Below are positions 51,078-64,000 of a DNA stretch of 64,000 nucleotides, one piece after another. Position 1 is the stretch's first letter. Each line of letters begins with the position of its first letter. The translations under genes and the position numbers were made by a program. Origin of the DNA: Bacteroidales bacterium UBA5382 (lineage in GTDB: Bacteria; Bacteroidota; Bacteroidia; Bacteroidales; Dysgonomonadaceae). The notes under the pieces are model-generated. The model was not told the origin of the DNA and did no database searches. It saw nothing but the letters and a program-made list of their open reading frames with translations. The stretch lies in assembly GCA_002409745.1 (NCBI GenBank), contig DHOU01000039.1, positions 1-64,000 of the forward strand, written 5' to 3'.

Positions 51078-51233
51078 ATGGAAGTATTCAATGCACAACA
51101 ACTGAATTCGGTAAAAGGCGGTTCTTCAGGAACTGAAAAAGAAGATGAAGATAATTCGATTATTGTCATTATCGATGGAGTACCCTATATTGTTACCCCG
51201 CATGGATTGAAGCCGGTAGTGGTACTAAAGTAA
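51078..51233 (+). CDS. Double-glycine leader peptide, acidic core, no cysteine
   Basis: 51 residues. MEVFNAQQLNSVKGG has the shape of a double-glycine leader: a short helix with Leu/Val at conserved spacing ending in Lys-Gly-Gly. The predicted product after cleavage at GG is SSGTEKEDEDNSIIVIIDGV followed by PYIVTPHGLKPVVVLK, acidic then hydrophobic with a His and no Cys. GG leaders direct C39 peptidase-ABC export in bacteriocin and signal-peptide systems. It follows a short AT-rich region with ATAATCAAAACA before ATG. Not in standard gene calls because of size. Role (bacteriocin, pheromone, structural peptide) is not determined. Confidence 0.65.
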   Translation: MEVFNAQQLNSVKGGSSGTEKEDEDNSIIVIIDGVPYIVTPHGLKPVVVLK

Positions 51234-51343
51234 TCCTCAATTTTGGAGAGATTCCGCTAAACGGCTCAAAACCGTTTGACGGATAAAATAATAATTCATG
51301 AAGTGCGAATAATTACGCCAAAAGGCAAAAAAACAAAACGATT

Positions 51344-51814
51344 ATGGATTTAAATCTGATCTCTGCAACGCTCTCTGGTGAAGATGCGGAAGAAGTTCGC
51401 AAGGCTTTTGCGACGATCAACACGAAGTTGCCGTTCCTTTCCACGATGCAAAGCGCGGAAGTGAGCGGGGTATTTAAAGTGGGAAACAACTACCAGCCGT
51501 TCCTCGAATTGGCCAAGGAAGTAGTCGATACCCACCCCGAAATTCTGCCGGCAGTGTTTAATGCCGCGGAGTTCGATAAGGATTATTCGCTTTACAAAAC
51601 ACTTCAACCCGTTTCCCTCCAAGCCGAAGAGATCAGCGAAGGGTTGAAAAAGTCGGTGATGGCCGTCGGTGGCGACACCATCAATGCCGCGTTCGAGGTG
51701 TACACGGCCGTCAAGCAGCACAAGGACAAGGTGCCGGGGCTAAGCGTGTTTTACGAAGCGATGTTCGCATTCTTCAAAAGAACCCGGAGCAAAAAGGATG
51801 AGACGAGAAAATAA
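51344..51814 (+). CDS. Hypothetical helical protein, copy A of cassette
   Basis: 156 residues, soluble, no signal peptide, no Cys. It is predicted to be nearly all helical (SGEDAEEVRKAFATINTKL, ELAKEVVDTHPEILPAVF, AEEISEGLKKSVMAVGGDT, EVYTAVKQHKDK) with a basic C-terminus (FFKRTRSKKDE). A copy with about 93% identical residues is encoded at 56294. I do not recognise a named family. Small helical proteins next to GG-leader peptides are sometimes immunity proteins, but nothing here proves that. Start is the ATG where the two copies begin to match. Confidence 0.7.
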   Translation: MDLNLISATLSGEDAEEVRKAFATINTKLPFLSTMQSAEVSGVFKVGNNYQPFLELAKEVVDTHPEILPAVFNAAEFDKDYSLYKTLQPVSLQAEEISEGLKKSVMAVGGDTINAAFEVYTAVKQHKDKVPGLSVFYEAMFAFFKRTRSKKDETRK

Positions 51815-51933
51815 GGCTTTTTTGCGCTTCTATGTGCGGTGATAACACAAGCGGCAGGATAGTACAGAGTGTTCTCAAGCCACTTTCGAGCGGAATGCCG
51901 TTTTTTGATACATTAAATTACAGGGATATACGG

Positions 51934-52266
51934 ATGAAGATGAAAACAAAAATAAGAATACTAAGGGAGAAAATAACCGGATGCCTGAGGCAAATGCTAC
52001 ATTTCTTTCCGTTACGGGAAATCCTGTTTGGTTTCCCGTCGGAAAAGGTTTACTGTCCCGTTAAGGATAGAATGCCGTTTCTTTTGCCGGAATTTCGCTT
52101 AGAGAAAAACATCGCTTCGGGAAATTTCTTCTTTTGTCATTCGTTGAAGCGTAACACATTCTTATGCCTGATCGGCAAAAACAACCTGGACACATCCGGC
52201 TGCAGCCGTTTTTCTCAATTCCGGCGGTTGCAGCCGATTAGGAAAAACAGGATTTTTCCTGTTTAG
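51934..52266 (+). CDS. Hypothetical Cys-containing protein, copy A
   Basis: 110 residues, basic, starting MKMKTKIRILREKITGCLRQ. A relative at 57136 shares the start and the blocks FFPLREIL, VYCPV and LIGKNNLDTSGCS with substitutions spread over the length but no frameshift, which supports a real coding sequence, though the amino-acid composition (Phe/Leu/Arg/Cys) is odd. No domain recognised. It follows the helical-protein gene by 119 bp. Could be a degraded or non-coding part of the cassette. Confidence 0.45.
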   Translation: MKMKTKIRILREKITGCLRQMLHFFPLREILFGFPSEKVYCPVKDRMPFLLPEFRLEKNIASGNFFFCHSLKRNTFLCLIGKNNLDTSGCSRFSQFRRLQPIRKNRIFPV

Positions 52267-52308
52267 AAATTGAGAGACAAGCGGAAAATCTGTATTTATA
52301 CAAATTGT

Positions 52309-52352
52309 CCGCAAGTCGCTGAAGCGAAGATAAAAATAGTAGGCGGCGCAGC
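52309..52352. repeat. 44-bp block identical to 57512-57555
   Basis: The block begins CCGCAAGTCGCTGAAGCG and ends AGGCGGCGCAGC; it is identical at both places and marks the right end of the duplicated cassette. In one frame it reads PQVAEAKIKIVGGA, leader-like in having GG, but no start codon is shared. Confidence 0.85.
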
Positions 52353-52449
52353 AATCCCAACCGGTGTGTTGCCGGGAAACTGTATCAAAATGGGCGCGAA
52401 TATTTCGAAAAGCGTGAAGAGTAGAAATAATATCCAAATAAATAAATTT

Positions 52450-52623
52450 ATGAGAAAGAAATTAATCATTACTTTTGCTGCATTATGTATTACTTTAGCA
52501 TCTTTCGCTTCTTTTAATTTTACAGCGAGTTGCGGTGCTCAGACGCAGACAGATTTTGGGAATCTATCCCCCGAACAGTACCAAAGCTATCTCCTGGAAT
52601 TGGATGATATCCTTTGCAGTTAA
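52450..52623 (+). CDS. Small secreted peptide with two mature cysteines
   Basis: 57 residues. Basic MRKK followed by a hydrophobic stretch LIITFAALCITLASFASF forms a Sec-type signal peptide; the predicted mature part, about NFTASCGAQTQTDFGNLSPE then QYQSYLLELDDILCS, is acidic with Cys28 and Cys56 able to form one disulfide. Bacteroidetes encode many such short secreted peptides (NVEALA-like) near transport genes; this one has no NVEALA motif. A TTG start at 52270 would make a longer frame but is unlikely. Followed by a MITE-like element. Confidence 0.55.
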   Translation: MRKKLIITFAALCITLASFASFNFTASCGAQTQTDFGNLSPEQYQSYLLELDDILCS

Positions 52624-52638
52624 TGAAATTATAAAATA

Positions 52639-52736
52639 AGGGTGTGTCCAAAGTGTTTTTTATTGGACAAATAAAGACTTCTATATACGATACATATACA
52701 TGTCTATATTCTTAATCAACGTTTTTGACACACCCT
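52639..52736. mobile_element. MITE-like element (AGGGTGTGTC ends)
   Basis: AGGGTGTGTCCAAA at the left and TTTTTGACACACCCT at the right form inverted ends with 10 perfect bp and one mismatch inside; span 98 bp, AT-rich middle. Length and layout match the 44102 element, whose ends are GGCTGTCTCAAAA. It may act as a terminator for the small peptide. Confidence 0.6.
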
Positions 52737-52752
52737 ATAAATATAAAACAAA

Positions 52753-53622
52753 ATGAGTAAGTCATATCTGTTCGTAATACTTCTGTTATTTTGTGTTGTG
52801 GGGAGTCTTTTTTCCCAACAAATAACTTCTGCCTCTCCGGAAGTGATGCAGACGCTCATGACCGTTTCAAAAAGAATTAGGTTGGATACTTGTGTGCTTC
52901 AGGTCCAATACAGAATGCTGAGTGTAACCGATGCGAATAAGCCCGATAAAAAGAAAGACAATTTGATGCTCTTACAAATAGGGCTAAACATCTCAAAGTT
53001 TTCAGATTTTTTTGTGTTGCGAGGAGATTCCTTACGTGAGGTACATGCCGCCCAGAAAATAAACCTGGTGGAATCAACCAATAAATTGTTGCCTCTTTTA
53101 AAGGGAACTACTCCTTTGAATGTTTTTAAGAATTATCCGGCAGGAAAAATCACGGTTTTAGACAGAGTACCATTGAGTACTACCTATAAATATATTGAAG
53201 ATAGGGAAAAGCCTGAGTGGAAAATGGAGCCGGGTAATTTAACCGTATGCGGATATGAGTGTCGGAAAGCGACAACCTCTTTTCGCGGGCGCCATTACAC
53301 GGCTTGGTATGCTCCGGAAATAGCCGTCAGCGAAGGCCCGTGGAAGTTTTGGGGCTTGCCGGGATTGATACTCAAAGTGGAAGATGACCGGGGGCATTAC
53401 ACCTTTGAGGGAGTCGCCATAGAAAAAGCACGGGGAATCGTTCCTATATACATTTTAGACCAGACCTATATAAATACGACAAAAGCCCGCTTCAACAAAG
53501 CGCTAAAGAACTTTTACGATAATCCGGGCGGAACCATACAGGCATCTGGCGTTGTGCAAGGCGGTTTGCCGGATAACATTCAATCCCGCCCGTACAACCC
53601 GATAGAATTGACTGATGAATGA
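52753..53622 (+). CDS. GLPGLI family protein 1
   Basis: 289 residues with a signal peptide (YLFVILLLFCVVGSLFSQ). The diagnostic box is EGPWKFWGLPGLILKVED near residues 196-213; the preceding YECRKATTSFRGRHYTAWY contains the conserved Cys and Arg-Gly. The family (TIGR01200 type) is exported, of unknown role, and almost restricted to Bacteroidetes. The C-terminal part is longer than in its three relatives here and lacks their ending LLERDY. It overlaps the barrel-protein start by 4 bp (ATGA), so translation is coupled. Confidence 0.9.
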   Translation: MSKSYLFVILLLFCVVGSLFSQQITSASPEVMQTLMTVSKRIRLDTCVLQVQYRMLSVTDANKPDKKKDNLMLLQIGLNISKFSDFFVLRGDSLREVHAAQKINLVESTNKLLPLLKGTTPLNVFKNYPAGKITVLDRVPLSTTYKYIEDREKPEWKMEPGNLTVCGYECRKATTSFRGRHYTAWYAPEIAVSEGPWKFWGLPGLILKVEDDRGHYTFEGVAIEKARGIVPIYILDQTYINTTKARFNKALKNFYDNPGGTIQASGVVQGGLPDNIQSRPYNPIELTDE

Positions 53623-56231
53623 GTGGCCGGTATAGATTACTGTTTCCGTTGTTCTTTTTCCCGTTTATCGCCGTATCTCAAACGGCGATAAGAGGAAATA
53701 TATCGGATGCGGAAAGCAAAAATCCGGTGGAAGGCGCCGTTATCAGTATCGTGGACGAGAGTAACGAAGTACTGTCGTATGGTGTATCTGACCGTAAAGG
53801 GGACTTCATGCTATCGGTAAACAGCCAATCGAATACATTCCGGCTGGTATGCCGGATGTTAGGATATTCGGACTACTCTCTATCGATAGAGAATAAAACA
53901 CAGGAAGTACTTGTTGCATTAAATCCTTCCGCCATCGAACTGAAGGAAGTAACCATAAAAGCGACTCCCATAACCATCAAGGAAGACACCCTGGCCTACA
54001 GCGTGAGTGCGTTTAAAACAGCCGGAGACAGGACCATTGGCGATGTGCTGAAAAAGATGCCCGGCATCGAAGTGAAGCCAGGCGGGGGAATTGCATACCA
54101 GGGTGAACCGATTAATAAGTTTTATATTGAAGGGCTTGATTTATTGGAAAACAAATACGGAATTGCTACCAATAACGTTCCTGTCGATGCCGTCCTCAAT
54201 GTGGAGGTTATTGAAAACCACCAACCCGTACAGTCGATAAAAGGAATGATCAGCAGTGCCCAAGCAGCGATAAACCTGAAATTGAGGGATGACAAAAAGG
54301 CGCGTCCCGTGGGGGGCGTAAGAGCGGGGGGCGGAAAATCCGATGAATGGAATTGGTTGTTAGAAGTCTTTACCCTGCTTGCGACAAAAAAGCGGCAAAC
54401 CATAGCCATGTATAAGACAAACAATACGGGTTTGGACATAGGAATGGAATTGAATGAGCAAACGCTTTCCATGCAAGATTTGCAGGACCCCTCCTCCGGA
54501 TTAGAGAAAGACTTATTGCTTCCTTCCGAATCCGGTAATCCGCCAATAGAACAAGAGCGGTATTTATTCAATAAAACCCATCTTGCTTCGGTCAATAATT
54601 TATGGAAAACGGGGGCTGACCGCCAGTTCCGTATAAATATCAATTATTTGAACGATGTTCAGCATGAAAACAGCTCCCTGAGGAGCGAATATTTTCTGCC
54701 CGACAGCACGTTGATTGTGATCGAGGATAATGCATTAAAAAAGAAACAACAACTCTTTTCGGGAACGCTTACGTATACCGACAACAACTCTTCGTATTTT
54801 TTGGAAAACGCATTCAACTGGAAGATAAAACAATCGGAGAACCACTCGTCTGTTTTTACTTACAGCGACAGCGTAGAGCAGGATTTTCACACCCCTACGA
54901 CATCTTTCCGGAATGAATTGAAGTACTTGCGCAAGTGGGGCGACCGGCTTTGGAATATCAATTCCTATGTTTCCTTTACCAATCAACCCGAGGCGTTGAC
55001 AGTTTACAGGGATAATGCCATAAGCCGGCAGGATATTGATTTGTACGGCTTTTTCACCCGCAATAGCAGCTATTACTCGTGGTTTTGGGGCCGGTCGAGT
55101 ATCCGCTTAAATGCATTGATGGAGGCTTCGCTGAATACTGTCGGGACAGACCTCGTATCTTCACTCGTAACCGACAGCCTGGCTTCTGACTTCCAATCAA
55201 CCGCATTAATATTCGAATTGTCACCCGCATATACGTACAAAACTGAAAAAAGCAAGCTGGAACTTACCCTTCCTTTCCGTTATCAATCCATCGGTTATGA
55301 CAACAAAAGGAAAAGTGACGGTACCCAAACCACCCATTATTTTTTGTACAATGCGCGAATAAGTTATAGCCGGACTTTCCATCCTTTTTTCTCCTCCCGC
55401 ATAGCTTATCATTACCTGCAGAATACCGGCGATTATATGGATTATCTGGATAGTTACACTATGAAAAATTACCGTAATTACTTCATTTCATCGGGAGTAA
55501 TCAGTTTGCGTAAAAGCCATACCTTGTCGCTAAGCCTGAATTACAAGAATCCGCTGAATAATTTATTCATCAATGCTGCGGCAGCATATATCCCCTCGGA
55601 AAGTAATAAAACCGCAGCCCGTCGTTTTGTCGGTGAAGTGTATATAAACAGTGAGATCCTAAAAGACAATCGGACAAATATATGGATGGGACGGTTTTAT
55701 TTGGGCAAATATTTCAGCCATATCAAAACCAATATCGGATTAACGAGCGACTATCATTCTTCTCAACTATCCCGTTTCCAACAAGATGTTCTTTATCCGA
55801 TGGAGGTCAATACCTTAAGGACAACAATCAGTGGAAATACAAAACTTTCCGATTGGTTGACTTTCGTGTATCGGTGCAATTGGGTTGAAACTGCTTCGTT
55901 AATAAAAGGCTCCGGCACATCTTATCAGTCGAGTTTCACTCAAATTGGTCAACAATTCAAGACTTACGTTTCGCTTTCGAAAAAACTCAGTTTCAATTTA
56001 CAACTTGAACATACCTATAACGAAATAGGGAAAGATACGTCGGTTGATATATTTCTGGCAAATATAGCGGCGAGTTATAAACTGGAGAACGTCGATTTTG
56101 ACTTGTCGTGGAATAACCTGTTCAATAAAAAAGAATATGCCTATTCATTTTTTAACGGATTGGAAACCTATATGTACAGATACGCTATCAGGCCAATGTC
56201 GGTAATCTTGACAGCGAGTTTTAAATACTAA
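53619..56231 (+). CDS. CarboxypepD_reg-like/TonB-plug outer-membrane barrel 1
   Basis: 870 residues: signal peptide (LLFPLFFFPFIAVSQ), a carboxypeptidase-regulatory-like beta sandwich (about 22-105, AIRGNISDAESKNPVEGAVI), a plug-like domain (about 110-225: DTLAYSVSAFKTAGDRTIGD, MPGIEVKPGG, NKFYIEGLDLLENKYGIA), and a long barrel with aromatic strand ends to the terminal PMSVILTASFKY. These proteins resemble TonB-dependent receptors but have a shortened plug and no evident TonB box; in Bacteroidetes they are regularly encoded next to GLPGLI genes. A relative (62079) shares the plug motif. Coupled to GLPGLI 1. Confidence 0.9.
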   Translation: MSGRYRLLFPLFFFPFIAVSQTAIRGNISDAESKNPVEGAVISIVDESNEVLSYGVSDRKGDFMLSVNSQSNTFRLVCRMLGYSDYSLSIENKTQEVLVALNPSAIELKEVTIKATPITIKEDTLAYSVSAFKTAGDRTIGDVLKKMPGIEVKPGGGIAYQGEPINKFYIEGLDLLENKYGIATNNVPVDAVLNVEVIENHQPVQSIKGMISSAQAAINLKLRDDKKARPVGGVRAGGGKSDEWNWLLEVFTLLATKKRQTIAMYKTNNTGLDIGMELNEQTLSMQDLQDPSSGLEKDLLLPSESGNPPIEQERYLFNKTHLASVNNLWKTGADRQFRININYLNDVQHENSSLRSEYFLPDSTLIVIEDNALKKKQQLFSGTLTYTDNNSSYFLENAFNWKIKQSENHSSVFTYSDSVEQDFHTPTTSFRNELKYLRKWGDRLWNINSYVSFTNQPEALTVYRDNAISRQDIDLYGFFTRNSSYYSWFWGRSSIRLNALMEASLNTVGTDLVSSLVTDSLASDFQSTALIFELSPAYTYKTEKSKLELTLPFRYQSIGYDNKRKSDGTQTTHYFLYNARISYSRTFHPFFSSRIAYHYLQNTGDYMDYLDSYTMKNYRNYFISSGVISLRKSHTLSLSLNYKNPLNNLFINAAAAYIPSESNKTAARRFVGEVYINSEILKDNRTNIWMGRFYLGKYFSHIKTNIGLTSDYHSSQLSRFQQDVLYPMEVNTLRTTISGNTKLSDWLTFVYRCNWVETASLIKGSGTSYQSSFTQIGQQFKTYVSLSKKLSFNLQLEHTYNEIGKDTSVDIFLANIAASYKLENVDFDLSWNNLFNKKEYAYSFFNGLETYMYRYAIRPMSVILTASFKY

Positions 56232-56797: not shown

Positions 56798-57112
56798 CAG
56801 TCGAATGTCTCACACACATAATGGAGTGTCCCGGAGCCATTCAATAATGGCAATTTGCCATTCCGTTATGTCTCGCAGCCATTCCATAATGACTCGGACA
56901 CATAAAATTATGTCTCGAAGACATTCCGTAATGGCTCGAAGACATTCCATAATGACTCGGAGACATAAAATAATGTTCCGGAGACATAAAATAATGGCTG
57001 AAAGACATAACGGAATGTTCCCGAGACATAATCGAATGGCTGGAAAGCATTCCGTAGCAGTCGGAAGATAGAACAGAGTGAATGTAAAACGCAATAGAAT
57101 GAGTAAGAACCG
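56798..57112. repeat. 21-bp degenerate tandem array inside cassette copy B
   Basis: About 13-15 units of exactly 21 bp from 56798, sharing ATTCCATAATGACTCGGAGA-like cores; some units have ACATAAAATAATG instead of ATTCCGTAATG. Copy A has only about two recognisable units at the same place (51860-51905), so the array has expanded in copy B or shrunk in A. The core ATGACTCGGAGA also occurs in the array at 1.64-2.0 kb. ORFs across it are by-products. Confidence 0.9.
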
Positions 57113-57646: not shown

Positions 57647-57805
57647 ATGTTAGAAGAATTAAATTTACTAGAAATGAGTGAAGTCCTTGGTGGAGCTTAC
57701 GATTATTGCAATGGTTTACAAGAAATAGCAAATAAGTATGGTGATGGATGGTCTGATAGTGATTGGGATAAGTGGGCTGATTCTTATTTAGCTTCTTGTG
57801 GTTGA
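57647..57805 (+). CDS. Double-glycine leader peptide with two-Cys core
   Basis: 52 residues. MLEELNLLEMSEVLGG is a textbook double-glycine leader (acidic/hydrophobic helix ending Leu-Gly-Gly). The predicted 36-residue core begins AYDYCNGLQEIANKYGDGWS and ends WADSYLASCG: Cys21 and Cys51 lie near its two ends, so one disulfide would close almost the entire peptide into a ring; it is acidic and Trp/Tyr-rich (3 Trp, 4 Tyr). A perfect hairpin terminator follows at once, and beyond it lie GLPGLI genes and a C39-like/VKOR/thioredoxin fusion that could form the disulfide. Function (bacteriocin or signal) is inference. Confidence 0.75.
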   Translation: MLEELNLLEMSEVLGGAYDYCNGLQEIANKYGDGWSDSDWDKWADSYLASCG

Positions 57806-57814
57806 TAAAAATTT

Positions 57815-57848
57815 AATCCTCCAGAATTTTATTTTCTGGAGGATTTTA
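57815..57848 (+). terminator. Hairpin terminator/attenuator after peptide gene
   Basis: AATCCTCCAGAA (57815-57826) and TTCTGGAGGATT (57834-57845) form a 12-bp perfect stem with a 7-nt loop, then TTAATTC. It lies 9 bp after the peptide stop and 14 bp before the GLPGLI 2 gene, so most transcripts would carry only the peptide and read-through would supply the downstream genes. Confidence 0.8.
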
Positions 57849-57862
57849 ATTCAATATTTTAA

Positions 57863-58717
57863 ATGAAAAAAACAGGTTTATATTTATTGTTTTTTGTACA
57901 ATCATTTATGCTTCTTTCTCAAAAGCATGAAGTATTAGAGCCTGCTCTTTTGGAAGTCCGGTATAAACTGGTCATGCAACAGGATACCATTCATAAAAAC
58001 AATGGAATGGTTGACAGTATGATTCTGCGGATAGGAGACCGGGTAAGCCAGTTTTTCAGTTATCGTACATTCTATTATGATTCTATATGGACGGATCCTG
58101 AAGGCCGGAAAATAGCGGAAGAATTGACATTGGAAGCATTTCGGACAGGGAATCATTCCAAGAGACCGGAAGTCGGGTCTACTTATGAATATATGTACAA
58201 AAATTATCCTGAAAAAAAACTAACCGTAATGAGTAAACGGCTTGTGGCGGGATTTACCTATAAAGAGGAATATTTGCCTCAAAATTGGATCGTCTCGGAT
58301 TCCATCAAACAAATATTGGGACATGATTGCAGGGCTGCAAGCTGTGATTTTCGGGGAAGAACTTTTTTTGCATGGTTTGCACCGGATATCCCTGTTAAAG
58401 ACGGGCCCTGGAAATTAAACGGATTACCGGGGTTAATTCTGGAAGCGTATGATAAATCCGGGCATTATCATTTTTTGGCAACAAATATCCAGACGAAAGA
58501 ACTATCACCCCTAACGTTCTTCCGTTTCGAAGAATATCCATACATCGAAACGGATCGTAAGCTTTTTCTTAAATCTATAAAAATGTATTTGTCTGGTGAA
58601 AGGATTGAAGATATTGATCTGATTAAAGATGTAATATGGAAAGGGAAAAAACAACTGTATTTTCGTAAAACGAAAAAGACCCTTTTATATGATTTTTTAG
58701 AACGTGATTATGAATAA
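57863..58717 (+). CDS. GLPGLI family protein 2
   Basis: 284 residues; signal peptide LYLLFFVQSFMLLSQ. Box DGPWKLNGLPGLILEAYDKS near 188-205; the preceding HDCRAASCDFRGRTFFAWF carries two Cys (in CRAASC) where copies 3 and 4 also have Cys-x4-Cys. The C-terminus ends TLLYDFLERDYE, a motif shared with copies 3 and 4, hinting at a conserved tail. Codon use is more AT-rich than the core genes of the window. First of three tandem relatives; 5 bp before GLPGLI 3. Confidence 0.9.
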   Translation: MKKTGLYLLFFVQSFMLLSQKHEVLEPALLEVRYKLVMQQDTIHKNNGMVDSMILRIGDRVSQFFSYRTFYYDSIWTDPEGRKIAEELTLEAFRTGNHSKRPEVGSTYEYMYKNYPEKKLTVMSKRLVAGFTYKEEYLPQNWIVSDSIKQILGHDCRAASCDFRGRTFFAWFAPDIPVKDGPWKLNGLPGLILEAYDKSGHYHFLATNIQTKELSPLTFFRFEEYPYIETDRKLFLKSIKMYLSGERIEDIDLIKDVIWKGKKQLYFRKTKKTLLYDFLERDYE

Positions 58718-58722
58718 AAACA

Positions 58723-59565
58723 ATGAAACGAAAAATCCTGTTTATTTTATTAGCGAGTGCAACTTTGCTGTCACATACTTTCTCTCAGGAAAAAGTATTG
58801 GATAGCGCTTATTTGAAATGTCAATATAAATACATATATGTGAAGGACACGCTCGAGTTATCGACGTTTGAAGATTTACTATTACTTCAAATCGGTAAAA
58901 ATATTTCCAAATCATACAGCTACTATACTTTTCAATCAGATTCTCTTGCAAAAGAGCCGGAAGGGCAAAAAACACGGAGTGAAATCTTCAATCAAGCATT
59001 GGAAAAATTCAAAGTACATCGAGATAAGACATTATTTCTGAATAGTTTTCCTCGAAGAAGAGGAACTGCAATTGTATATAAAAATTATCCCGACGGAAAA
59101 ATAACGGTTACAGATAATGTTACCAGTGACTATGTTATGTATGAAGACGAGTTGAATACTCAAAACTGGAAGATTAGCGACAGTGCTAAAATTATTTTAG
59201 GCTATTCTTGTCAAAAAGCGGAATGCGACTATCGCGGACGACATTGGACGGCATGGTTTGCTCCGGATATTCCCGTGAGCGATGGGCCTTGGAAGTTAGG
59301 GGGCTTACCCGGTTTAATCATGGAGGTTTATGATCAAAAAAAACATTATGCCTTTACCCTTGCGGGCATAGAAAAAGTTTCCGATGAACCGATTGTCTTT
59401 AGTCAACCTATAGATAACAACAAATATAGGAAAATAGAGCGCAAAGAGTTTTTAAAAGCGCAGTGGAGGCATCTTTCAAATAATTTTATTTCTGCAGAGA
59501 CCGGCATGGCAATGGGTGTTGATAAACCTGTTTATCAAGATCTCATCGAACGCGATTATAGATAA
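58723..59565 (+). CDS. GLPGLI family protein 3
   Basis: 280 residues; signal peptide KILFILLASATLLSHTFSQ. Box DGPWKLGGLPGLIMEVYDQK; YSCQKAECDYRGRHWTAWF gives the Cys-x4-Cys pair and the FRGR-type segment; tail YQDLIERDY. Closest in sequence to GLPGLI 4, so the pair probably arose by tandem duplication. The KNYPDGKITVTDN stretch is shared with copies 1, 2 and 4 and is a second family signature. 16 bp before the next ATG. Confidence 0.9.
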   Translation: MKRKILFILLASATLLSHTFSQEKVLDSAYLKCQYKYIYVKDTLELSTFEDLLLLQIGKNISKSYSYYTFQSDSLAKEPEGQKTRSEIFNQALEKFKVHRDKTLFLNSFPRRRGTAIVYKNYPDGKITVTDNVTSDYVMYEDELNTQNWKISDSAKIILGYSCQKAECDYRGRHWTAWFAPDIPVSDGPWKLGGLPGLIMEVYDQKKHYAFTLAGIEKVSDEPIVFSQPIDNNKYRKIERKEFLKAQWRHLSNNFISAETGMAMGVDKPVYQDLIERDYR

Positions 59566-59581
59566 AATATCTTTCGGCAAA

Positions 59582-60412
59582 ATGAAAAGATCGATCATTA
59601 TTCTCTTATTAGTGCTTCCTCTGTTTTCTGCTTTTTCTCAAAAAGAATTAGACAAAACATTTTTGAAGTGTCAGTATAACTATATTTGGCAGAATGACAC
59701 ATTAGATTACAAAAAGAAGGAGGATTTATTGATTTTACAAATTGGTAAAAATATGTCCAAATGCTATAGCCATTATAGCAACCAGATAGATTCTTTAGAC
59801 TCTCTCACAGATGGATATAAGATCATTGGGAAAATGATTGATAATGCTATGAAAAATGGCGATTTTATGAAAGGGAATTATCCCCACAAACGAATGAAAG
59901 CATATATCTACAAAAACTATCCGCAAGGGAAAGTGACTGTTACGGACGGTCTTTCATTGCAAGATCATATTTATGAGGATGATTTAAATTCACAAGAGTG
60001 GCAGATACGCGATAGTACGAAAACCGTTTTGGAGTATTCGTGCCAAATGGCTGTGTGCGAATTTCGAGGCAGGCAATGGACAGCCTGGTTTGCTTCCGAA
60101 ATTCCGGTAAGTGACGGCCCCTGGAAATTCAGCGGCTTACCCGGTTTAATCATGGAAGTGTATGATCGGGGTTGGCAATATCATTTTACGATCGTCGGAT
60201 TGGAAAAAACAGAAGAGCCAATTATTTTCAGCAATACATACGTCGGAAGTAAAAAGTTTGAAAAGACAAACCGCCTTGATTTTCTAAAAGCAAAAAAGAA
60301 GTACCTGATGGATATGAGCGGCTTTATAGAGCTGGAAACAGGTATTGATTTAGGCAGTAATACTCCACAGAAAGTAATGCGGTATGATTTGCTTGAACGG
60401 GATTATAAATAA
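59582..60412 (+). CDS. GLPGLI family protein 4
   Basis: 276 residues from ATG 59582 (MKRSIIILLLVLPLFSAFSQ signal peptide). The longer ORF from 59516 would overlap the previous gene and lacks a signal, so was rejected. Box DGPWKFSGLPGLIMEVYDRG; YSCQMAVCEFRGRQWTAWF with Cys-x4-Cys; tail YDLLERDYK. Its TAA stop overlaps the ATG of the fusion protein by one base (TAATG), coupling the two. Confidence 0.9.
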   Translation: MKRSIIILLLVLPLFSAFSQKELDKTFLKCQYNYIWQNDTLDYKKKEDLLILQIGKNMSKCYSHYSNQIDSLDSLTDGYKIIGKMIDNAMKNGDFMKGNYPHKRMKAYIYKNYPQGKVTVTDGLSLQDHIYEDDLNSQEWQIRDSTKTVLEYSCQMAVCEFRGRQWTAWFASEIPVSDGPWKFSGLPGLIMEVYDRGWQYHFTIVGLEKTEEPIIFSNTYVGSKKFEKTNRLDFLKAKKKYLMDMSGFIELETGIDLGSNTPQKVMRYDLLERDYK

Positions 60413-62055
60413 TGGGTGAAAACGAAAACAAATATTTAGTCACTTTATTGATTCATTTCTTTAGGATGTGTCACATCCCTTACCGGGAAAAAGAAGTGGA
60501 ATTAGTGCTGCGCTCGTCGCCTTCATTTCCTTCGGTTTTGTCGATTGTACAGACGTGTCTGTATTTTGGGCTTGCAGCCAAGGCGTATAAGGCGGATTTT
60601 AACGGTCTTGAAAAAACCGAAATGCCTGCAATTGTTCATCTGAAAGGAAATGACACGGGGAAGTTTGTCCTGGTGAAAAAAATAATGAATGATAAAGTGA
60701 TGTATTTCGATGCGACTACTTATCAAACAAAAGAGGTCACGAAAGATGAATTTGGTACCAGTTGGAGTGGCGTGCTTATTTTATCTGAAAAAGGCTTGCC
60801 TCAACGTCAACGGAAAATAAATCAGTCAAAAATAACGAATAGATTGGGTGTCTATGGTTTAACCTTATTGGCGTTATCAAGCCTCTTTCTTTTCGAATTT
60901 CAGAATAATCGTTATGATTCCACGGAAATACTATATGCATTCAATCTCTGCGTACTGAAAATGGTGGGTATATGGCTGTCTATAAATCTGCTCAATCAGG
61001 AGTCCGGTAGCTTTTCCCCTTCCATAGACAGCTTTTGTCACAGCAAAGCATCCTTTGATTGCGATCAAGTACTTCATTCAAAAGCTTCGAAGATAGTAAA
61101 AAGCGTGACTTTAGCTGATGTGGGATTCGTTTATTTCTGCACGGGATTCATTTTACTGATAGTAAGTGTATATTCCGGACTCGTTGATAGTGTTATCACC
61201 TTTCTTTTTTGCTTATCTGTTTGCTGTATTCCTTTTATCTTCTTTTCTGTCGGTTATCAAGGATTTGTTGTCAAGAAATGGTGCCCTTTATGCCTCAGTG
61301 TAATGGGTGTGATTGTTCTGGAAGTTTTCTTGGTTCTTATATTCCCTTTAAAAATCACACTTACCGTTCCATTTATGACTATATTGTCCCTGCTGCTTTT
61401 TTCATTGGCCGTCAGCATTATGGTTTTACTTTCCTTTAAAGAGTTTCTCCGAGAGCATTCAACATATTTTACAGATAAAATCAATGCTCTGAGATTTAAA
61501 AGGAATCCATTTATTCTTGCCACATTATTCAAACATCAGGAGCGAACATTTTTTTCTAAAAATAAAGGAGTGATATCCATCGGAAAATCCGATTCGAAAA
61601 TCTGCATCACAACATTGCTCAGCCCCTTGTGTACTCCGTGTAAAAGACTGGTAACTGCACTTATGGATATGCGTGAAAAATTTCCCAATCACTTTTCATG
61701 GAATATACGTTTCGATGGCGTGAGAAGTCATGAATACAAAGAAATAAATCATATTCCCCTCTATTTAATAGAAGTATGCAGGAATATAAATTCCGATGAA
61801 AAGAAGTTAGCAGTTATAAGGGACTGGTACTCGGGACAATCCATAGAGAAATTTTCATCGATTTATCCATTACAAGGAATATCGGACGAAACGATTGCTG
61901 ATTTCTATTTCCAATGTGAAGAAAATAGTACCTTGAATATAAAAAAAGTTCCCGCCATTTGGATGAATCATTGCGAATTACCACAAGAGTATTTAGCTAT
62001 GGATATTCCGTTCTTAATGACGGACCTGGATTTATTACAGCAGCTTACCGTGTAA
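60412..62055 (+). CDS. C39-like / VKOR / thioredoxin fusion membrane protein
   Basis: 547 residues in three parts. Residues 1-125 have the C39-peptidase build (IHFFRMCHIPYREKEVELVL, MPAIVHLKGNDTGKFVLVKK, YFDATTYQTKEV) but Lys84 stands where the catalytic His of HFVVL would be, so cleavage seems lost while leader binding may remain. Residues about 145-345 hold five TMs with VKOR cysteines: Cys209 and Cys217 in a loop, then WCPLC (Cys291, Cys294) in a helix. Residues about 390-547 are thioredoxin-like with SPLCTPC (Cys407, Cys410) and a VPAIW cis-Pro site. Together this is a full relay for making disulfides in exported peptides, with quinone as probable acceptor. One-base overlap with GLPGLI 4. 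Confidence 0.85.
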   Translation: MGENENKYLVTLLIHFFRMCHIPYREKEVELVLRSSPSFPSVLSIVQTCLYFGLAAKAYKADFNGLEKTEMPAIVHLKGNDTGKFVLVKKIMNDKVMYFDATTYQTKEVTKDEFGTSWSGVLILSEKGLPQRQRKINQSKITNRLGVYGLTLLALSSLFLFEFQNNRYDSTEILYAFNLCVLKMVGIWLSINLLNQESGSFSPSIDSFCHSKASFDCDQVLHSKASKIVKSVTLADVGFVYFCTGFILLIVSVYSGLVDSVITFLFCLSVCCIPFIFFSVGYQGFVVKKWCPLCLSVMGVIVLEVFLVLIFPLKITLTVPFMTILSLLLFSLAVSIMVLLSFKEFLREHSTYFTDKINALRFKRNPFILATLFKHQERTFFSKNKGVISIGKSDSKICITTLLSPLCTPCKRLVTALMDMREKFPNHFSWNIRFDGVRSHEYKEINHIPLYLIEVCRNINSDEKKLAVIRDWYSGQSIEKFSSIYPLQGISDETIADFYFQCEENSTLNIKKVPAIWMNHCELPQEYLAMDIPFLMTDLDLLQQLTV

Positions 62056-62078: not shown

Positions 62079-64000
62079 ATGAGGAAATATGTCATCGGTA
62101 TAATCGTTTATCTCTTTACAATAGCAGTAAGTTACAGCCAGCCGGTTATGATTTCGGGCGTTGTAACCGAAAAGAGTTCGGGCGAACCATTGCCCGGTGT
62201 TCTGGTGACGATACGCTCGAAGGAAAACAAAATCGTTAAGTTTAACCGTACTTCCGTAGAGGGTCGCTACGAAATATCTTTCGAGTCCTTTCCCGCGGAG
62301 CATACCCTGCATTTCTCCCTGATGAATTTTGCCGCTCAAAGCGTAACGCTCGAAACGAATCGGCAGGTGTACGATGTGCAATTGAGCGAACAGGCGACGG
62401 AATTGAAAGAGGTGATCGTGAAAGCACCTGGCATCCATCAACGTGGCGATACGATACGTTATGTAGTCTCGAGTTTTGCGGATGCACGGGATAAATCCCT
62501 GGCAGATGTGTTGAAGAAAATGCCGGGTATTGAAGTGGAAAAGAGCGGCGAAATCAAATTCAACGGAGTGTCGATTAATAAATTCTATATCGAAGGAAAA
62601 GATTTGTTGGGCGGGCGTTATGGCTTGGCAACGCAAAACGTACAGCAACAGGATGTGGGCAGCGTGGAAGTGATGGAAAACCATCAACCGTTAAAGGCGT
62701 TGGAAGATATTTCGTTCTCTCAGAATCCGGCAATCAATATCCGCTTAAAAGAAGATGCCAAAGCCCGATGGGTGGGTACCGTCAAAGCCGGTGCTGGCTT
62801 AAGCCCGTTTCTCTGGAATATAGAACTGGCCCTTATGCGCTTCAAGAAAAATGCGCAAACGCTGAACACCTATAAAACGAATAATACCGGCGAGGACTTG
62901 ATACGCGAAACGCAGTCGTTTTCCATCGATGAAATACTCAGTCAATTCTCCAAGAATTACCGTCTCGCGGACAATGTCAATGTCTCCCCCGGCTCTCTTG
63001 CGGAGCTCGATGCCGAACGTACGCGCTTTAACAAGACCCACATGATGAGTACTAATAACCTCTGGTCGCTGGGGAAGAATTATGACCTTACTTCTCAAAT
63101 CACTTACACCAACACCCGGCTTACGTCCGATAATTCTTCGGTAACTGCTTATTTCTTGCAGGATTCAATACTGACGGAGGAGAAAACCGAACATGGATAT
63201 AACCGCCAAAACCGGTTGTCGGGCGACGTAACCCTTTCGGCAAACACCTCGTCTTATTATTTCAAAAATAAACTCTCTACCGATCTCCGGTGGAATGATA
63301 CGGATATCGACATTGCGGGAACCTATTCCAACCGGCAATCGGCTTCCCTTACATACCGTAGCATAGCCAATGATTTGGAACTGTTGAAGCGCACTGGGAA
63401 ACAGGCTTACACGATTCACTCATTCAATTTGTATCAAACCAAGCCACAGGATTTAACGGTGACAAGGGACGGAGAGGCACAGGAACAGCAGGTCTTGTCT
63501 TCGGCTTTTTACACGAATACGAATACCTCGCTGGCTTTTTACCTGAAGCCATTTACTGTTTCCCTGAAGCTGGGGATAATAGGAGTTGCGCGGTCTTTGG
63601 AAAGTACTCTTACCGGGGTGTCCGATACGATTGGCCGATTGGATAATGACTTGTCGGTGCGCTATCTGAATCTCTATGCATCGCCGGAGGTGGAATATAA
63701 AAACGGCGGATTCGAAGCGAAATTCGATATGCCTGTTTCCTTTCTCTCTTATCAATACCGGAATCGTCTCACGGAAGAAAAAGAACCGACTTCCCGTTTT
63801 TTACTCTCCCCCGGACTATATATGCGATATCATGTTACTTCGCGGTTGTCGGCCTCCGTTTCGGGACGTCTGTCACAGAGTCCCGTAGAAGAACAGTCCT
63901 TTTATGAAGGAGTAATCCTGCAAAATTACCGTAGTCTTGCACGGGGATTGATCGATTATGAAACGGGCACCCAAAAGTCCCTGACTTTAAGCACATCGTA
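62079..64000 (+). CDS. CarboxypepD_reg-like/TonB-plug outer-membrane barrel 2, partial
   Basis: The frame is open from ATG 62079 to the right edge (640 residues visible). Signal peptide VIGIIVYLFTIAVSYSQ, CarboxypepD_reg-like sandwich (MISGVVTEKSSGEPLPGVLV), then a plug with DTIRYVVSSFADARDKSLAD, KKMPGIEVEKSGEIKFNGVS and NKFYIEGKDLLGGRYGLATQ, matching the equivalent blocks of barrel 1, and the start of a barrel. GC content rises again relative to the GLPGLI 2-4 genes. 23 bp after the fusion gene, so it probably ends the same operon or continues it beyond the window. Confidence 0.9.
   Translation, partial: MRKYVIGIIVYLFTIAVSYSQPVMISGVVTEKSSGEPLPGVLVTIRSKENKIVKFNRTSVEGRYEISFESFPAEHTLHFSLMNFAAQSVTLETNRQVYDVQLSEQATELKEVIVKAPGIHQRGDTIRYVVSSFADARDKSLADVLKKMPGIEVEKSGEIKFNGVSINKFYIEGKDLLGGRYGLATQNVQQQDVGSVEVMENHQPLKALEDISFSQNPAINIRLKEDAKARWVGTVKAGAGLSPFLWNIELALMRFKKNAQTLNTYKTNNTGEDLIRETQSFSIDEILSQFSKNYRLADNVNVSPGSLAELDAERTRFNKTHMMSTNNLWSLGKNYDLTSQITYTNTRLTSDNSSVTAYFLQDSILTEEKTEHGYNRQNRLSGDVTLSANTSSYYFKNKLSTDLRWNDTDIDIAGTYSNRQSASLTYRSIANDLELLKRTGKQAYTIHSFNLYQTKPQDLTVTRDGEAQEQQVLSSAFYTNTNTSLAFYLKPFTVSLKLGIIGVARSLESTLTGVSDTIGRLDNDLSVRYLNLYASPEVEYKNGGFEAKFDMPVSFLSYQYRNRLTEEKEPTSRFLLSPGLYMRYHVTSRLSASVSGRLSQSPVEEQSFYEGVILQNYRSLARGLIDYETGTQKSLTLSTS

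Follow-up and report, generated by a model that had tools for sequence, protein, structure and literature searches.

A VKOR–thioredoxin fusion with a C39-like domain as a candidate leader-guided disulfide-forming enzyme in Bacteroidota

Why would a membrane enzyme for disulfide formation carry a peptidase-like domain without catalytic residues, next to a gene for a small cysteine peptide? The question is raised by Bacteroidales bacterium UBA5382 (assembly GCA_002409745.1), where a peptide with a double-glycine (GG) leader is followed by three GLPGLI genes and then by a gene joining a C39-like domain, a vitamin K epoxide reductase (VKOR) domain and a thioredoxin domain. The window analysed here is the first 64,000 nt of contig DHOU01000039.1 (C25; 135,568 nt), from a genome of 3.43 Mb that is 99.75% complete. 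An earlier note, made from the sequence alone, had read this arrangement as dedicated disulfide maturation of the GG peptide by the fusion, and our analysis supports that interpretation. Support from computation comes from the domain assignments and how well they are conserved, from the genomic association and the predominance of even cysteine numbers in the peptides, and from the split between the fusion, whose C39 domain is dead, and the exporter, whose C39 triad is intact. From its domains and gene neighbours, the fusion is probably an enzyme dedicated to forming disulfides in GG-leader cysteine peptides under the guidance of their leaders. For the fuller reading, that across Bacteroidota an inverted, cytoplasm-facing VKOR–thioredoxin with a leader-reading C39-like domain puts quinone-driven disulfides into leader-bearing precursors before export, we estimate a probability of roughly 0.5.

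The fusion and its active sites

The 547-residue fusion is encoded at 60412..62055 on the forward strand (Pfam, PDB profile, AlphaFold2, VIA-align), and its three domains are confirmed by family profiles together with an AlphaFold2 model (predicted local distance difference test, pLDDT, 89). The first domain (residues 1-128, 60412..60795; Pfam, alignment, VIA-align) has the C39 fold without the catalytic Cys and His and is therefore C39-like, not a peptidase; family profiles also identify it as C39-like. The earlier note had described Lys84 in place of the catalytic His within a retained fold, on which profile and structure agree, and the catalytic Cys motif is absent as well. Among 175 fusion homologues (174 distinct sequences), the His is present in 8, the Cys motif in 1 and both in none. 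The one fusion with the Cys motif (locus L055, 8386-10044 on the fusion-oriented strand) keeps DCGPSCL and has Val at the His position; this Val rules it out as a fusion with a fully intact C39 domain, and it may represent a stage on the way to losing peptidase activity.

Degenerate C39-like proteins also exist on their own, with 141-159 residues, in loci L057, L058, L059, L060 and L111. In L057-L059 they lie directly 5' of an ATP-binding cassette (ABC) transporter with a C39 peptidase domain (PCAT), an arrangement in which the leader-binding part may act as an adaptor protein of its own.

The VKOR core (about residues 173-316, 60928..61359; Pfam, alignment, VIA-align) scores 43.2 bits against PF07884, for which the curated cut-off is 27.5, and contains the helix bundle and both cysteine pairs, that of the loop (Cys209/217) and the CxxC (CPLC 291-294). 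The thioredoxin domain (DsbA/ScsC-type, about residues 376-547, 61537..62052; PDB profile, AlphaFold2, VIA-align) has a DsbA-type fold, its CxxC (CTPC 407-410) and the conserved Pro514. These six redox cysteines, named in the earlier note, are invariant in 175 of 175 homologues. Thioredoxin folds are capable of oxidation or of reduction and reshuffling, and structural and profile matches of this domain include ScsC and DsbC/DsbG, as would suit an isomerase or reductase that reduces or reshuffles wrong disulfides rather than forming them. VKOR, however, supplies oxidising and not reducing power, and here it is fused to the thioredoxin with all four of its cysteines invariant; searches of the UBA5382 genome found neither DsbB nor another VKOR, the fusion being its sole VKOR match. 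We consider the isomerase or reductase alternative improbable.

Association with cysteine-rich GG peptides

The GG-leader peptide with two core cysteines is indeed encoded at 57647..57805 on the forward strand (52 residues; open reading frame (ORF) and translation, motif controls). A 16-residue leader ending LNLLEMSEVLGG, which agrees with the double-glycine rule at every key position, precedes an acidic core of 36 residues with cysteines at core positions 5 and 35. Neither Pfam nor NCBIfam gives the peptide a match at E ≤ 1, and TIGR04149, the GG leader model for ribosomally synthesised and post-translationally modified peptides (RiPPs) modified by radical S-adenosylmethionine (SAM) enzymes, is likewise unmatched at that threshold; of 10 peptides from other loci, 2 exceed the TIGR04149 cut-off. 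Compared with 206 other cores, its best score is a z of 3.4 (an L100 peptide; 3 of 500 shuffles equally good), which is unconvincing as kinship given 206 comparisons.

At E ≤ 1e-10, fusion matches were detected in 13 of 247 genomes of the order and in 41 of 395 sampled from the phylum; at E ≤ 1e-6, 23 of 101 genomes of the family have one. Each count includes UBA5382, and some weak matches in these counts are C39 domains alone or PCATs. A scan of named organisms with a single fusion sequence gave zero matches, and an alignment-based query did yield relatives; fusion-bearing organisms include Kordia, Aquimarina, Dokdonia, Flavobacterium johnsoniae, Chryseobacterium gleum, Sphingobacterium, Dysgonomonas and Parabacteroides. 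Two sets of loci were assembled. The first began as 61 wide loci (60 plus the window locus), 46 of which hold a fusion of 480-640 residues; the second comprises 73 loci from named organisms, left from the best 80 of 152 relatives after removal of 4 overlapping the first set and 3 not full-length.

A first GG motif, requiring at least two core cysteines, found peptides on the fusion strand at 24 of 46 loci, compared with 3 on the opposite strand and 1 of 20 control regions, and a refined motif found them at 34 of 46 (87 peptides), compared with 1 on the opposite strand and 0 of 20 control regions. Both motifs were designed with the first-set loci already inspected, and the refined one was tuned there and then frozen. 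At the 73 named loci, which are new sequence of the same protein family, the frozen motif was positive in 61 (121 peptides; 5 on the opposite strand), with the peptide starting no more than 700 nt past the fusion stop in 48. The co-occurrence of the fusion with GG-leader cysteine peptides that the earlier note predicted is thus seen at 61 of 73 further loci as against 0 of 20 control regions, the latter taken from first-set genomes. PCAT matches are likewise lacking in the control regions (0 of 20). The PCATs at fusion loci keep an intact C39 triad of Cys, His and Asp in 55 of 55 cases, so that, as their family would suggest, the PCAT would cut and export while the fusion, whose C39 domain is dead, would oxidise.

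The peptides differ from GG peptides at large in their cysteines. Core cysteine counts for 208 peptides are 2 (4 peptides), 4 (52), 5 (4), 6 (107), 7 (17), 8 (21) and 10 (3), even in 187 and never 3; the set includes one 5-Cys peptide of a neighbouring radical-SAM cluster in UBA5382. Averaged by fusion cluster, the even fraction is 0.90 at 45% identity (46 clusters with peptides) and 0.84 at 35% (16 clusters). Without a cysteine filter, 203 of 216 GG peptides at fusion loci have at least 4 cysteines, compared with 1 of 19 at 20 PCAT loci from genomes that gave no fusion match in the phylum scan, where the 19 come from 7 of the loci and a few resemble chance ORFs; the fusion is therefore linked to cysteine-rich GG peptides and not to GG peptides generally. 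An excess of even cysteine numbers in exported proteins accompanies oxidative folding machinery, according to the portion of PMC12453122 consulted.

This linkage also bears on whether the fusion could be a general housekeeping disulfide oxidase that lies near peptide genes by chance. VKOR–thioredoxin fusions do perform general oxidation in other bacteria, and in UBA5382 the fusion is the only VKOR match. Against such a role stand the linkage itself, the restriction of the fusion to the 41 of 395 phylum genomes above, and its presence on 8 plasmid records, and we regard it as very improbable. In independent annotations of the Emticicia and Parabacteroides distasonis plasmids, a 'vitamin K epoxide reductase family protein' is followed by one or more small hypothetical proteins and, further on, by a peptidase-domain ABC transporter; the three hypothetical proteins inspected are peptides with 6 cysteines each. 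On the Parabacteroides distasonis plasmid (L297:7983-15796) the fusion is accompanied by a 6-Cys GG peptide, a LanC-like protein, two glycosyltransferase-type proteins and a PCAT, and this peptide may, from its neighbours, carry further modifications.

Orientation, mechanism and known systems

AlphaFold2 predicts six transmembrane (TM) helices in the fusion (138-164, 170-197, 234-255, 258-287, which is kinked, 292-310 and 321-363) and places the C39-like domain, both VKOR cysteine pairs and the thioredoxin all on one side of the membrane. The VKOR–thioredoxin of Synechococcus (4nv5/4nv2), by comparison, has five TM helices and a periplasmic active site; model residues 169-318 of the fusion pair with chain residues 13-157 of that protein, which has no C39-like domain, and the fusion has an extra first helix. 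We counted Lys and Arg on the active-site side (before the CxxC and after the last helix) and on the other side (two loops). In the fusions the values are 5.42 and 0.58, with the active-site side ahead in all 175, whereas in 20 VKORs of the phylum without C39 they are 1.05 and 4.55 and only 1 of the 20 is fusion-like. This control was drawn from 30 loci, 22 of them recovered by profile, less 2 fusions; the topology comparison rests on these 20 because querying PDB with part of another VKOR sequence, intended as a control of known topology, gave no match. By the positive-inside rule, the reversed loop charges suggest that the fusions are inverted, with their working parts in the cytoplasm. That all catalytic parts face the cytoplasm and oxidation precedes export, as predicted from helix count and loop charges, seems to us the somewhat better bet. 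Such an orientation agrees with leader reading, since the leader exists only until the PCAT cuts. The fusions form one clade separate from the 20 other VKORs (support 0.90), which points to a single ancestral change kept over deep divergence rather than to many.

The same enzyme could also act on the same substrates in the ordinary VKOR orientation, with periplasmic active sites oxidising the peptide after PCAT cleavage and export; the C39-like domain would then dock to the PCAT, or be cytoplasmic if TM1 fails to span. TM1 is the least certain helix, periplasmic disulfide formation in Escherichia coli is restored by a VKOR and by a VKOR-DsbA fusion, both from Clostridia (PMC12453122, in part), and the compartment of bacteroidetocin disulfide formation is unstated in the portion of Coyne 2019 (PMC6671954) considered. 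Three results argue the other way: the loop charges are reversed in every fusion, the TM1 region is hydrophobic in 174 of 175, and the PCAT triad is kept throughout, so that a C39-like domain in the periplasm would find the leader already removed. We view the periplasmic orientation as possible and on the unlikely side.

In the mechanism favoured here, with the cytoplasmic orientation, the precursor would be synthesised in the cytoplasm and its GG leader held by the non-cleaving C39-like domain, while the thioredoxin CxxC would oxidise the core cysteines in pairs. VKOR (Cys209/217, Cys291/294) would re-oxidise the thioredoxin and pass electrons to quinone, and the precursor would be handed to the separate PCAT, whose intact C39 would cleave after GG as the peptide is exported. 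Leader binding, the oxidation itself, quinone use and the order of these steps are what we infer.

Several points weigh against this picture. The charge argument rests on one clade, so the 175 fusions are not independent; the conserved Lys and Arg may be functional; the compared loops are longer in the other VKORs (9.3 and 18.1 residues as against 7.0 and 11.4); and TM1 is modelled with lower confidence (block pLDDT 67-78). The motif is negative in 12 of 46 and 12 of 73 loci, four of the former (L053, L094, L114, L131) holding such a peptide by eye. Odd counts of 5 or 7 cysteines occur in 21 of 208 peptides, 9 of them from three Dokdonia loci (L198, L202, L212) and 1 from the UBA5382 radical-SAM cluster; these are perhaps dimers or bear another modification. 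The window peptide is itself atypical, two cysteines being found in only 4 of 208 peptides, and a protein database search with it returned only itself. Only 55 of 119 fusion loci show a PCAT match that covers both C39 and membrane domain, several contigs being short; both PCAT copies of UBA5382 look damaged, possibly through assembly error; and the GLPGLI and TonB genes beside the fusion are a local add-on.

Related parts occur in known systems in other combinations. PCAT1 and the AMS/PCAT protease 6mpz have C39 domains that are cysteine proteases, whereas the fusion has neither the catalytic Cys and His nor an ATPase. The C39-like domain of HlyB (3zua) belongs to an ABC exporter of large RTX proteins and, unlike that of the fusion, is not in a redox enzyme. 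The VKOR of Aeropyrum pernix, an archaeal thermophile, performs general oxidation and is not known to have a leader-reading domain; by the title of a 2017 report by Hibender, its topology is said to promote disulfides in two compartments, and it seems by analogy a precedent for an inverted VKOR. The closest functional parallel is with bacteroidetocins, whose clusters contain a thiol oxidoreductase gene the deletion of which weakens toxin activity (Coyne 2019, PMC6671954, in part). In that portion of the paper, the shared features are a GG-leader cysteine peptide, an ABC exporter with a double-glycine peptidase domain, a dedicated thiol oxidoreductase and occurrence in Bacteroidetes; a term search of the paper gave no mention of VKOR, thioredoxin or C39. 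Like bacteroidetocin loci, the window locus combines a thiol oxidoreductase gene with a GG-leader peptide that has two or more cysteines. Bacteroidetocins are also defined by a 5-TM protein and by killing through BamA, and the window peptide differs from them in having no database relative found.

In the open-licence literature, no title or abstract among the matches listed linked VKOR, C39 and GG peptides, and a term search of a VKOR phylogeny paper (PMC4555120) for C39, peptidase, fusion and Bacteroidetes came back empty; priority is uncertain because subscription papers and preprints lay outside the search. As far as seen there, a dedicated peptide disulfide enzyme is already known from bacteroidetocins, a leader-reading, apparently inverted one is not, and no prior description was found of a single polypeptide that both reads a leader and drives disulfide formation with quinone. 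If the predicted topology is true, bacteria would form disulfides in the reducing cytoplasm as a leader-dependent RiPP modification, on substrates chosen by tag, and the inverted fusion would serve a large, little-described set of mostly 4- to 8-cysteine GG peptides and might be a tool for producing disulfide-rich peptides. The fusion gene is also a simple genomic marker for cysteine-rich Bacteroidota peptides, some annotated merely as hypothetical proteins.

The exporter and neighbouring genes in UBA5382

Besides the fusion, UBA5382 has two C39 matches. One is a remnant at 64703-64804, with 29 codons from its Met to a stop; the other is a PCAT at 69821-71509 with a frame that breaks in the ATPase part, where, judging by ABC motifs, a stretch is missing. 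A working C39 ABC exporter, as in bacteroidetocin loci, was thus not found at the locus, which has this remnant and the damaged copy. In L092, with a fusion 46% identical to that of the window, the order is fusion, receptor, PCAT, so that the remnant is probably a lost exporter; the L092 PCAT frame also ends early. Export of the window peptide by UBA5382 is doubtful on this sequence, unless the PCAT damage is an assembly error. The damaged PCAT belongs to a second RiPP cluster beyond the window (L002:3806-10228, contig positions 65805-72227), with a Cys-rich GG peptide (GCGVGCGAGCGGGCSGC), a TonB receptor, a radical SAM/SPASM maturase and a short HlyD-like protein.

The three genes between peptide and fusion are GLPGLI family members, in the order that the earlier note gave: 57863..58717 (TIGR01200, 181.6 bits), 58723..59565 (212.3 bits) and 59582..60412 (191.4 bits), all on the forward strand. 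GLPGLI genes adjoin the fusion in some Bacteroidales loci only (L052, L097, L100, L101, L102, L107) and were found by tblastn in 1 of 73 named loci, on which ground we rejected them as a core part of the system. Of the 12 GLPGLI runs in the window and the Bacteroidales loci, 9 begin within 400 nt after a GG-Cys peptide; a further UBA5382 GLPGLI gene, on contig C45, has no GG-Cys peptide in front. Downstream of the fusion, on the forward strand, lies a gene for a TonB-dependent-receptor-like protein of 868 residues (62079..64000, on to contig position 64685; Pfam), with a CarboxypepD_reg-like N-terminus and a Plug match under the cut-off; relatives lie 3' of the fusion in L092 and L093. The GLPGLI and TonB genes may have a role in peptide uptake, immunity or outer-membrane passage.

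The window locus is one of two paralogous modules (51343-56231 and 56293-64685, about 5 kb apart), each with a 156-residue ORF, a repeat block, a small peptide, GLPGLI and a TonB-receptor-like gene. The repeat blocks are 81-100% identical. An imperfect tandem repeat of a unit of about 21 nt (CATTCCATAATGACTCGAAGA) lies upstream of the window peptide, at 56859-57047. The small peptide before GLPGLI in the upstream module (52450-52623) has a Sec-type look, its signal judged by eye, and a two-Cys mature end (CGAQ...DDILCS); it has no similarity to the window peptide and looks, from its sequence, to use a different export route among the same neighbours. A Cys-free GG-leader peptide (MEVFNAQQLNSVKGG...) is present in two copies, at 51078-51233 and at contig positions 64942-65097.

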